From an uncultured bacterium (lineage in GTDB: Bacteria > Cyanobacteriota > Vampirovibrionia > Gastranaerophilales > Gastranaerophilaceae), in NCBI GenBank assembly GCA_902796305.1, contig CADBOJ010000112.1, positions 1-34,973 on the forward strand: a stretch of 34,973 nucleotides of DNA, written 5' to 3'. A program made the position numbers and the translations under genes. The notes beneath the pieces were generated by a model. That model was given only the letters and a program-made list of their open reading frames with translations. It was not told the origin of the DNA and did no database searches. This document shows, piece after piece, positions 29,132 to 34,692 of the stretch. Each line of letters begins with the position of its first letter. Position 1 is the first letter of the stretch.

Positions 29132-30241
29132 TTATGCGAATATTTTGAATGTTTTTTCTACGTTATCTTCAATTACCTTGTTTACGGCATCCATTTCGGT
29201 TTTGATTGCGTTTTGTTCGGTATCCAGCTGATTTAATTTTAATTCAAGATTTTGGTCTTCTTTTTGTATGATTTCCGTTTTGCTGTTTATATCAGATATG
29301 GTTTTTTCATATACGGATTTTTGATATTCATATTCGTTAAATGCGTCATTATATCCTTGTTCATCGTATTCTTTTTTGGTTGAAAGCGAGAATTCTTTAC
29401 CTTTTAATTCTTCGGGGTAGCTTTCATCATTTGAAATTACTATATTGCTTAATCTTCCGTTTTTAGATTTGGTTAATTCCCCGATTACGGTTGTTGTTGA
29501 ATCTTTGTAATATGTATATGCATTACGAGGTGCAACCTTATTATTTTCTTCGGTAGGATTCATCATGGCATCAAGTTCTCTATCCGTAACAAAGTGATTA
29601 ACACCTTTTGAATCCTGATAGAAGTAATATGTTATAGGTGTATCATCATCATATTTTTCTTTAGTGCAGCAAGTGCCGTAACCGTCAATTAAAGTGGTAT
29701 TTGCGGGTACTTTATAGATTTGGCTCGGGTCACTGCTTGTAGCACCCTTATTTATGCTGAGTTCTCCTTTTTCATTTAAAGGATTGTCATTATTCGGGTC
29801 GTATATTAATTTTTGAGTATAAGAAGAAGCCGTACTTTCATTTGAGCCGTTTTGTCTGGTTAAATTTATTTTATAAATACCGTCTTCTACCGTAGGGGTA
29901 TTAATTGTGTATGTTGTAGTTGTTTCTTTTTGTATTTCTTCTTTTCTGCTTAATGTGATTTTATATTGATTTTCAGCAGTATAAGTTTTTGTGTAGTTTA
30001 CGATTGTATAATCTGATGATGCATAATCACCTGCAGAACCGTCAAGAGAATATACATAATTATAATATTCAGATTGAACAGGAGGTGTCGGTACTTCAAG
30101 ACCCATCATCTGATTTAAAAGATTGGCGCTTTCGTTTGCTAAAGCGGTTCTTTCTTGGTTAATCTGCTGACCTTGATATTCAACATTACTTTTTCTTGAT
30201 GTTAAACCCAGGAATCTTGCCTGGCTTGCTGCCATACCCAT
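29132..30241 (-). CDS. Unknown protein with a MAASQAR-type N-terminus, possibly flagellar-associated
   Basis: About 369 aa, mostly Asn/Thr/Tyr-rich. The first 50 residues (MAASQARFLGLTSRKSN, then EYQGQQINQERTALANESANL) form a helical block of a kind I associate with lineage-restricted Melainabacteria proteins near flagellar genes. The C-terminus (about 300-369) is a long coiled coil (SKTEIIQKEDQNLELKLNQL). No signal peptide is present, so it could leave through a flagellar-type exporter; this is inferred. The chosen ATG 30241 has GGAGG 11 nt upstream; a first ATG at 30259 sits on the GGAGG itself (ATGGAGG). Confidence 0.55.
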   Translation of the reverse strand: MGMAASQARFLGLTSRKSNVEYQGQQINQERTALANESANLLNQMMGLEVPTPPVQSEYYNYVYSLDGSAGDYASSDYTIVNYTKTYTAENQYKITLSRKEEIQKETTTTYTINTPTVEDGIYKINLTRQNGSNESTASSYTQKLIYDPNNDNPLNEKGELSINKGATSSDPSQIYKVPANTTLIDGYGTCCTKEKYDDDTPITYYFYQDSKGVNHFVTDRELDAMMNPTEENNKVAPRNAYTYYKDSTTTVIGELTKSKNGRLSNIVISNDESYPEELKGKEFSLSTKKEYDEQGYNDAFNEYEYQKSVYEKTISDINSKTEIIQKEDQNLELKLNQLDTEQNAIKTEMDAVNKVIEDNVEKTFKIFA

Positions 30242-30327
30242 TACTGTCATCGCCTCCATTGTTATTGTTTACATATAGAGTTACGGTATATATTTAATGA
30301 AACTTGAGGAAATTAAATAATAATTTT

Positions 30328-31157: not shown

Positions 31158-32333
31158 TCAGTTATTGTTTTCGGGCGGGTTTTTGAAAAAATTTTCTTTG
31201 TTTTTTTTGATTTCGTTTGTTGCTTGAATGTCGCCTTTTTTCTTGGCTGTTTTTTCGATTTTTCTTTGTTCTTGTACCGTTGTTTTCTTGAGTTTATAAA
31301 CAAAGATAAGAATTTCCGCTATTGCTTTATATAAGTCAGGCGGAATTTGCCTGTTGATTTCAACAAATCTGAATAAAGCACGGGCAACGGGCGGATTTTC
31401 AATAACCGGAATATTATGCTCGCGGGCAATAGTTTTAATTTTTTGCGCAAAAAGTTCTGTACCTTTTGCAACAAGCATCGGACTTTCCATCTTTTCAGCA
31501 TCGTATTTAACAGCACATGCTATATGTGTCGGATTGGTTACAACAAAATCACAGGTTGTAACGGCGTCCATCATTTTTTGCTGGAGAAGCTGCTGTCGTC
31601 TTTGCCTTAAGGCTGCTTTTACGTTGGGGTCGCCTTCCGAGTTTTTGTATTCATCCTTCACTTCTTTAAAAGACATTTTCTGGTCTTGCAGGAATTTCCA
31701 TTTCGTGACCCCGTAGTCGGCTGCCGCTATTACAAGAAATGCAATTCCGGCTTTCAAGACAAAATCCAGCAAAAGCGAGCCGAATTGAATTAATACCGCA
31801 AAATGGTTATCAATTGCGGCAAGTGCAAGAATTGCTTCAAAATGGCTTGTATATACCATATATCCGATAACACCGAGAACAATTACTTTTAAAATATTTT
31901 TTAATAAATCAAAAAGCGTTTTCGGATTGGCAAGATTTTTGAAATATTTTGCAGGATTGAATTTATCGGCATTAAATTCCATTGGTTTTGTCGTAAATAA
32001 AGGGCCGATTTGAATCATATCTCCCATAATACCCACAAATGAGGCAAGAAGAAGTATCGGAAGCAATATAAGAGCCGTCGGGATAACGGTTTTTGTAAAA
32101 AGATAGGCATAACCTATTTCATCCAGATGTTTGTTTGGAATTTGCTCGTATATTATTGTGAATAATGCGGTAAGCTGTCCCCAAATAATCGGGGCAATAA
32201 GATAAATTGCACTAAACATGATAATTATTGCAATAGCAGTGGATAAATCCTTCGATTTTACCACCTGACCGTTTTCACGTGCTTTTCTTAGTTTTTGCTG
32301 GCTTGCTTCAAATTGTTTATTTTCGTCACCCAT
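31158..32333 (-). CDS. flhB: Flagellar type III export gate protein FlhB
   Basis: 391-aa export-switch protein of the flagellar secretion gate. Basic N-terminus (QKLRKARENGQVVKSKDL), four hydrophobic helices (about 31-58, 83-105, 145-165, 182-207), then the cytoplasmic domain with KMSFKEVKDEYKNSEGDP and the self-cleavage site N267-P268-T269-H270. Cleavage at NPTH switches substrate from hook to filament. A Lys-rich tail (about 355-391) extends past the usual end. It begins 7 nt after the HerA-like/Tudor gene, so the two are co-transcribed. Confidence 0.92.
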   Translation of the reverse strand: MGDENKQFEASQQKLRKARENGQVVKSKDLSTAIAIIIMFSAIYLIAPIIWGQLTALFTIIYEQIPNKHLDEIGYAYLFTKTVIPTALILLPILLLASFVGIMGDMIQIGPLFTTKPMEFNADKFNPAKYFKNLANPKTLFDLLKNILKVIVLGVIGYMVYTSHFEAILALAAIDNHFAVLIQFGSLLLDFVLKAGIAFLVIAAADYGVTKWKFLQDQKMSFKEVKDEYKNSEGDPNVKAALRQRRQQLLQQKMMDAVTTCDFVVTNPTHIACAVKYDAEKMESPMLVAKGTELFAQKIKTIAREHNIPVIENPPVARALFRFVEINRQIPPDLYKAIAEILIFVYKLKKTTVQEQRKIEKTAKKKGDIQATNEIKKNKENFFKNPPENNN

Positions 32334-32340
32334 AAATTAA

Positions 32341-34692
32341 TTATTGCTCTAATGTAATATTTGCAATTTTCGGGTCGAGAAGTTTAATTCCCGCTGTTTC
32401 AAAATTAACCTGTATTATTTGCCTTTGTTCATGCTGTAATGTCTTGATAATAACGCCTTTTCCGTATGTTCCGTGAGATATTCTGTCTCCTTTTTTGAAT
32501 GAAATTTTATTATCATCCTCAGGAATTTCTTCTTTAAAAATCGGAAGTTCTTCTTCTTTTTCTTCGGATTTAACCAGGCTTGAATCAAGCACAACATCTT
32601 TATCAAGTTTTATTCCCTGTACTTCTTCCGTGGAGTCCGAATTGATTATGTCATTGAAACTGTCATTTACCGATTTATTTACAACATCGTTTAAATCTAT
32701 TTCTTCATCATTTGTATCAACGGGTTCAGTTTCTGCTATCAGTTCAGGTTTACTGTCGGAAGCGGCTTCTTTTGATGCAAATTGGAAAAAGTCAAGCTCA
32801 TCATCGGAAATATCGGCTTCGGTATGAACTTCTTCCGTTTTTTCTTCCGGAGTTGCTTCCGCCGTTTTAGCTTCTTCTTTATCTTCTTCTTTATCTTCTT
32901 CTTCAATTTCCAGTGTTTCATCGTCTTTGAGAAGTTCCAGAATTGCCGTATCCGCATCAAGATTTTCGTTATTTAATTCTATTGCCGGTACATCATTATC
33001 ATCATCTTCTTCTTCAGGCTCTTTTTCTTGAGGAGCTGTTTCTTCTTCCGTATCTTCTTCTTGAGATAATACACTTAAATCTATATTATCAGTTTCTTCT
33101 GTTTTTGAAGTATCCTCAATATTTTCATTTACTTCCGTCTTAACGGAATTATCAAGTTCCTGAAAATCATCTTTTGATGATGAGTTTGAGTGTTCTTGAA
33201 TATCATTGTTTTTTTCAACACCCACTATGCCTTCAAAATAATCTTTTTCCTTTGCTTTAGGTTTTTCTTCTTTTTGAGGCTCTTCTTCAAATTCTTCCAA
33301 ATCTTCAACCGAAACTTGCTTTGCAGTACCTCTTTCTTCATCAAATTTATTTAATTCATCAAGAAGTTTTTTTGTATCCTGTTGTTGTTTTAAGTCTTCG
33401 TCGACTGAAATATCATTTTTTTCATCTTCATCATCAAGAAGCGACAACGCAATTTTTCTGTATTGAGCTCTCTTTTCCGGAATCTTTAGTTCATAATCTT
33501 TTGCAAGATATAAAAAATTATCCGTGTTTTCGCCAAATAAAATACAATCATGTGCAACAAGGTTTGCAAGTGCAAAGTTAGCATTTAAAAAGTCCGTGCG
33601 CTGGTATAAACTCTGCATAAGTATGTAATTCTTGCAATATTGAACAATTGACGGCAGCTTCTTATAATTATAAGAAACATTCGGAATAAATTTTATGTTT
33701 TGTTTAGCGCAATAAATTTTGTTTATTAAATCAACATCGCAATTCTTATCGTTTATTCTTGTTATAAGGTAAACTTCATCTTTAATTCCGTCTGTTATGT
33801 ATTCAAGAAAGGCTTTTTGCCAGAATGAATCGATGCTTGACATGTCAATTAAAGTAATCTCATTTTTGCTTATTGCTTTAAAAAGATTTTCATAATCTTT
33901 TTTGTTTCTTGCAAAAATTTCATCCATCTGATAATTCTTTAATTTTGCAATTAAAAGCTTAAGCTCTGTATAAGGTGTAGCATTATATTGCTCCATTAAA
34001 ACTCTTGTAAATGTGTTGAACGGAATAAATTCATGCTCTTGATTTCTTGCAAATTTTTTAATTTCATTAATTATTGCTCTGCTTGATGCCTGAAATTCAA
34101 GAGTTGCATCCGCTAAGCACTTATCAAATATAAAATCTATTGTTGAATAATTTAAAGGAAGTTTAAAATCTTTTGAAGCTTTGATTTTTTTTGCCTCATC
34201 AAATTCCAATATTCCTGTAGAATCAATAATTACAGAATGTTTTTCGGTTGATAATTTTTTTGCAAGACTGATTGAAAGAGAATTTGCATAATCTATTTTG
34301 TCTGCTATTATTACCGCATTTTGATTGAAAAAATCATATTGTATATTTAGTGGTTCGGAAGTTTTTGAATTAATACCGAATACAAAAGTCTTTTTATTTA
34401 CATTTAAGTATGATTCAATATCTTCCTGTTTAATTTTTATAATTTCACATTCTTTGTTCGGTGTGAAATTATCATACGGCATGACTTCGTTATCTTTGCT
34501 GATTTTATAAAATAATTTGAGCCTTGCAACATCCTGTGAAGCATCAAACTTGTCGTTATAAATTTCGGTTATTTGAGCAACATATCTTTCTTTTTGAGAT
34601 TTTACCATCAAAAAATCAAATAACTTAAACGCTTCGACTTTAGGATTAAAAAGTATACGTATCTCATTGTTTAATGTATTAGAAACTTGCAT
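32341..34692 (-). CDS. HerA-like ATPase-fold protein with degenerate P-loop and C-terminal UvrD/PcrA-type Tudor domain
   Basis: 783-aa protein in three parts. Residues 1 to about 115 look like a HAS-barrel (FLMVKSQKERYVAQITEIY then KECEIIKI). About 115-420 follows the HerA/FtsK pattern (NAVIIADKIDYANSLSISLAKKL, then SVIIDSTG and ITLIDMSSID), but no GxxGxGK[ST] is present, so it is probably ATP-inactive. About 420-720 is acidic low-complexity. Residues 734-783 (GDRISHGTYGKGVI to the end) match the C-terminal Tudor of UvrD/PcrA, which contacts RNA polymerase. An alternative reading is an unrelated N-terminal domain. Ends 7 nt before flhB. Confidence 0.6.
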   Translation of the reverse strand: MQVSNTLNNEIRILFNPKVEAFKLFDFLMVKSQKERYVAQITEIYNDKFDASQDVARLKLFYKISKDNEVMPYDNFTPNKECEIIKIKQEDIESYLNVNKKTFVFGINSKTSEPLNIQYDFFNQNAVIIADKIDYANSLSISLAKKLSTEKHSVIIDSTGILEFDEAKKIKASKDFKLPLNYSTIDFIFDKCLADATLEFQASSRAIINEIKKFARNQEHEFIPFNTFTRVLMEQYNATPYTELKLLIAKLKNYQMDEIFARNKKDYENLFKAISKNEITLIDMSSIDSFWQKAFLEYITDGIKDEVYLITRINDKNCDVDLINKIYCAKQNIKFIPNVSYNYKKLPSIVQYCKNYILMQSLYQRTDFLNANFALANLVAHDCILFGENTDNFLYLAKDYELKIPEKRAQYRKIALSLLDDEDEKNDISVDEDLKQQQDTKKLLDELNKFDEERGTAKQVSVEDLEEFEEEPQKEEKPKAKEKDYFEGIVGVEKNNDIQEHSNSSSKDDFQELDNSVKTEVNENIEDTSKTEETDNIDLSVLSQEEDTEEETAPQEKEPEEEDDDNDVPAIELNNENLDADTAILELLKDDETLEIEEEDKEEDKEEAKTAEATPEEKTEEVHTEADISDDELDFFQFASKEAASDSKPELIAETEPVDTNDEEIDLNDVVNKSVNDSFNDIINSDSTEEVQGIKLDKDVVLDSSLVKSEEKEEELPIFKEEIPEDDNKISFKKGDRISHGTYGKGVIIKTLQHEQRQIIQVNFETAGIKLLDPKIANITLEQ

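Follow-up and report, generated by a model that had tools for sequence, protein, structure and literature searches.

A conserved HerA-like protein without ATPase motifs, joined by an acidic linker to a PcrA-type Tudor domain, in the Gastranaerophilales

The window analysed here is a whole stretch of 34,973 nucleotides (contig CADBOJ010000112.1) from an uncultured bacterium of the order Gastranaerophilales, and one gene in it raises the question of what a protein may do that is built like HerA, lacks the motifs for ATP chemistry and ends in a Tudor domain. A preliminary description had placed an open reading frame here with coordinates that proved exact, but the coding strand is the minus strand (Table 1). 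On the sequence comparisons given below, the three-part architecture of pseudo-HerA, acidic linker and PcrA-type Tudor is real. We found no report of HerA joined to a UvrD Tudor in the open-access literature, in line with the earlier statement that no protein with this order of parts had been described, and the order is not described in the family libraries scanned either.

Table 1. Positions of the pseudo-HerA gene, its parts and the adjoining flhB in the window.
Feature	Position	Strand	Basis or remark
Whole gene, pseudo-HerA–linker–Tudor protein, 783 aa	32341..34692	-	ATG at 34692, stop at 32341-32343
HAS-barrel-like N-terminal region, residues 1 to about 123	34324..34692	-	Aligned with HerA by hhalign, residue 2 onwards
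HerA/DUF87 RecA-like core and tail without catalytic motifs, residues about 124-405	33478..34323	-	
Walker A position, residues 128-142, sequence IIADKIDYANSLSIS, Walker lysine position = A136	34267..34311	-	Register with 4D2I ATGSGKS; table over 61 orthologues
Acidic low-complexity linker, residues 421-725	32518..33432	-	
PcrA/UvrD Tudor, residues 735-783, contact positions H740, Y743, K770, L772	32344..32490	-	PF21196; alignment to UvrD C-terminal domain
flhB, start 7 bases downstream of the pseudo-HerA stop	31158..32333	-	Same strand

The window protein alone gave no significant match to DUF87, so that its relatives were needed to settle the question of HerA. A profile of the family aligned by hhalign with eight bona fide HerA proteins at a probability of 97.8% (E = 6.8e-13, 402 aligned columns), and the alignment takes in the HAS-barrel region and the core and reaches the conserved tail Gly, in agreement with the HAS-barrel/HerA order suggested earlier for the N-terminal half. 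Against the PDB, HerA 4D2I was the only significant match (E = 1.2e-6), with LILSDKQENKNN of the pseudo-HerA in register with ILAATGSGKSN of 4D2I. Several orthologues from other families of the order exceeded the Pfam cut-off for DUF87 (the best at 40.8 and 37.5 bits), their matches mostly starting past the P-loop part of the model. The Pfam HAS-barrel model matched nothing in the window's genome or in the listed genomes of the family; hhalign aligned the N-terminal region from residue 2 onwards.

As negative controls, we compared the family profile with ComM, an AAA+ P-loop ATPase, and with FlhB, obtaining 0.2% and 0.1%, respectively; HerA itself against ComM gave 1.7%. Values this close to zero indicate that the match is specific to HerA and does not reflect generic P-loop similarity. 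A comparison with an alignment of cyanobacterial HerAs alone also gave 0.2%, and the same subfamily matched the other HerAs at 98.7%; the failure is probably due to the small diversity of that alignment. AlphaFold models from two-sequence alignments had a pLDDT of 43 for residues 1-424 and 47 for the Tudor, too low to bear on the fold. Judged by the profiles, residues 1-405 are homologous to HerA.

Compared with HerA of the DUF87 (HerA/FtsK) superfamily, as represented by 4D2I, the D. radiodurans enzyme and the HerA of SIR2-HerA defence, the pseudo-HerA retains the alignment from the region of the HAS-barrel to the tail, the DUF87 core and the Asp of the D-x-x-G-E-Y beta-strand, which is invariant in 61/61 orthologues, but it lacks Walker A, the Walker-B DE, EGRK and QRP. 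A P-loop motif occurs in none of the 61 orthologous N-domains, which confirms the absence of Walker A noticed at the outset, and the window protein reads VYLITRIND at the Walker-B Asp-Glu position and PNVSYNYKKLP at that of QRP. The column of the Walker lysine holds mostly A, T or S, with R in two orthologues and K in five, all five being deep ones (L026, L027, L029, L030, L086); these lysines in deep families suggest that catalysis was lost stepwise. The pseudo-HerA also differs from HerA in its much smaller insert and in the added linker and Tudor, and no NurA or SIR2 gene was seen beside its gene.

Other HerA proteins occur in these bacteria. A SIR2-HerA defence-type HerA with a P-loop, separate from the pseudo-HerA, is present in some genomes of the order (L062, L063), and a P-loop-bearing HerA of 540-580 aa (L090-L109, L130) is widespread elsewhere in the phylum and was seen in one genome of the class (G050). 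A role in defence was considered for the pseudo-HerA and rejected: it had no PADLOC match, and a true HerA from the same order (L063) scored 616 bits.

The gene was found in 38 of 39 relatives from seven families of the order, at identities down to 22-29%, and in 51/52 of the same-family genomes drawn in the search of the class. The same search gave no match in about 94 genomes from the rest of the class, beyond this family; the listed ones include no member of the order. Outside the class, the searches covered plasmids, phages and viral contigs and gave no match, and an origin from a virus or plasmid was rejected on this basis. The reading frame is open wherever the gene was found, and dN/dS against the nearest relative was lowest in the N-domain (0.059), higher in the Tudor (0.130) and highest in the linker (0.278). 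As far as these substitution patterns tell, the protein is a conserved pseudoenzyme under purifying selection and not a relic.

The stretch between the two domains, described earlier as about 300 acidic low-complexity residues, has the composition claimed for it, with 37% D/E and 10% K/R over 294 aa in the window protein. Acidity is common to the linkers of 62 orthologues (23-46% D/E), whose lengths range from 120 to 450 aa, and composition thus appears to be maintained while length and sequence drift.

At the C-terminus, the UvrD/PcrA-type Tudor proposed earlier is confirmed by PF21196, which matches residues 735-779 (E = 3.3e-7; score 30.5 bits, cut-off 23.9). All 13 orthologues scanned also match this model with E values no higher than 0.1, a few scoring under the cut-off. 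The domain is also present in the aligned full-length orthologues. The PcrA residues H681, W684, K712 and L714, mutated to test binding to RNA polymerase (PMC5397179), correspond in the HMMER alignment to UvrD to the contact positions in Table 1. Over the orthologues, the aromatic residue is kept in 61/61 and H in 53/61, and nearly all have K or R ahead of LLDP. The likeness to PcrA/UvrD lies in the Tudor, which belongs to one Pfam family in both, stands at the very end of the chain after a long linker and has the same contact positions, whereas the body is HerA-like and not a superfamily-1 helicase, the domain ends in K/R-LLDP and the linker is strongly acidic. With the RNAP-interaction domains of Mfd and CarD the protein shares a Tudor-like fold and a weak profile match in 7/13 orthologues, but wherever its score was read this match stays under the curated cut-off, and the PcrA-type model scores better.

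The Tudor of PcrA docks on a TGE-tipped hairpin found in UvrB and in a lineage-specific insert of RpoB, the docking motif in both being [VIL]-D-x-x-T-G-E-[VIL]-[VILT] (PMC8318588). The UvrB of the window's genome reads IDALTGEII; over the order, the strict motif is present in 16/30 UvrBs and a TGE or SGE core at the docking hairpin in 27/30, the exceptions being two proteins of family f3 (TGH, TGD) and one of f6 (TAQ) (L134, L139, L150). In RpoB, the strict motif occurs in 0 of the 30 sequences readable in the order, that of the window's genome included, and the insert (model positions about 210-293) is absent from all of them. The earlier label of an RNA-polymerase-type Tudor is thus right for the contact surface but does not extend to a docking motif in RpoB. 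Loss of the insert together with retention of the UvrB hairpin favours an adaptor directed to UvrB over an RNA polymerase factor. It should be noted that a second, PcrA-sized ORF in the window's genome bears a Tudor of the same type, which raises the possibility of a partner shared or contested between the two proteins.

Loss of the ATP-binding parts with retention of the fold, a tether carrying a docking domain and conservation throughout the order together indicate that the protein is probably a passive adaptor in DNA repair or transcription. The version to which we incline, with reserve, is a HerA-derived pseudo-ATPase serving as an adaptor whose Tudor would dock most likely on UvrB. The N-terminal body would form a HerA-like oligomer, possibly a ring around DNA, unable to translocate; a ring without ATP is plausible by analogy with D. 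radiodurans HerA, which is a hexamer without nucleotide or DNA (PMC9960219). The acidic linker would be a long, flexible arm, and the TGE-tipped beta-hairpin on which the Tudor settles would most likely belong to UvrB, so that the body would be held at repair sites marked by UvrB, at a docking point shared or contested with the genome's own PcrA/UvrD. Three features weaken this proposal. By the motif rule UvrB is not the partner everywhere, because three UvrBs lack the key glutamate in genomes that keep the protein; PcrA alone may account for the conservation of the UvrB hairpin; and the gene neighbours vary by family (nadD-yqeK, divergent comM, flhB) with no consistent pointer to repair.

The main rival has RNA polymerase as the partner, with the Tudor on another site of the beta subunit, such as beta-1, the site of Mfd and CarD, and with the dead HerA body acting on transcription complexes. 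Retention of the residues by which the PcrA Tudor contacts RNAP speaks for it, as do the 7/13 orthologues that weakly match the CarD/TRCF RNAP-interaction model and a relaxed motif in 30/30 RpoBs, which in those printed reads VNRD[ST]GEIK near residue 100, presumably within the contact region of Mfd and CarD. We nevertheless regard this reading as unlikely: the insert with the PcrA-Tudor motif is missing from the order's readable RpoBs, and, since PcrA does not compete with Mfd on RNAP (PMC8318588), beta-1 is not where a PcrA-type Tudor would be expected. An inactive subunit of a mixed ring, or a regulator of an active HerA/FtsK-type ATPase of the same cell, would agree with the lysine at the Walker position of some deep orthologues, since its loss from an active enzyme may have been stepwise; it is made improbable by the lack of any HAS-barrel protein in the window's genome, where DUF87 matches are weak and below the cut-off, and of a second HerA beside the gene. 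Least credible of all is a decaying relic without function, which would explain why the catalytic motifs are gone but not the low dN/dS of the N-domain, the open frames and the order-wide retention; it is refuted unless the signal of selection is an artefact.

The neighbourhood of flhB suggests yet another role, in flagellar or type III export. The two genes lie on the same strand with a gap of 7 bases, and flhB adjoins the gene in 23/23 gene-bearing genomes of the genus; both are missing from one genome of the same family that is 99% complete (G132), which has no FlhB match of any kind. However, the adjacency is found in 0/15 genomes of other families and in none of the sampled sister genera, where nadD and yqeK lie upstream; comM is nearby and divergent in several other families, sometimes with a small gene. 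The link is thus local to the genus and says little about function, and we rejected it as functional evidence; the single transcript claimed earlier is probable within this genus only. Nor is a phylogenetic profile of much help, as pseudo-HerA and flhB are both near universal and their co-occurrence has little power, and the protein has no export-related domain. A part in export is very improbable, having been largely refuted by synteny.

Several observations concern the export genes and neighbours themselves. Two FlhB paralogues are frequent in genomes of the order (window 31158-32333; G000:C18:9374-10411), and at least one FlhB is present in 59/60 genomes of the family. Most genomes of the order then known carried only a flagellar subset (PMC4040986), and a reduced non-flagellar export apparatus is possible in the order. 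A 375-aa ORF on the minus strand (window 29132-30259), whose only profile matches are weak and coiled-coil-like, is conserved close to flhB in two further genomes of the genus (cluster 12), and its product may serve as an export substrate. Three genomes of other families encode a protein of 150-160 aa (L082:3889-4374, cluster 15) upstream of the pseudo-HerA gene, with comM nearby, and in one relative the pseudo-HerA gene has near it a homologue of LdpA, which is typical of cyanobacteria.

Taken together, our results describe an order of domains that we found neither in the open-access literature nor in the scanned family libraries and that is conserved across a bacterial order, and they indicate that the HerA fold can be retained by selection after the loss of its ATP chemistry. 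In its boldest form, which we consider doubtful, the pseudo-HerA would be a former DNA pump turned into a passive ring or clamp, held by its acidic arm to UvrB (or RNA polymerase), as a repair-coupling factor without a counterpart elsewhere. Loss of the RpoB insert with retention of the UvrB hairpin makes this order a test of the targets of PcrA-type Tudor domains in lineages without the RNAP site.
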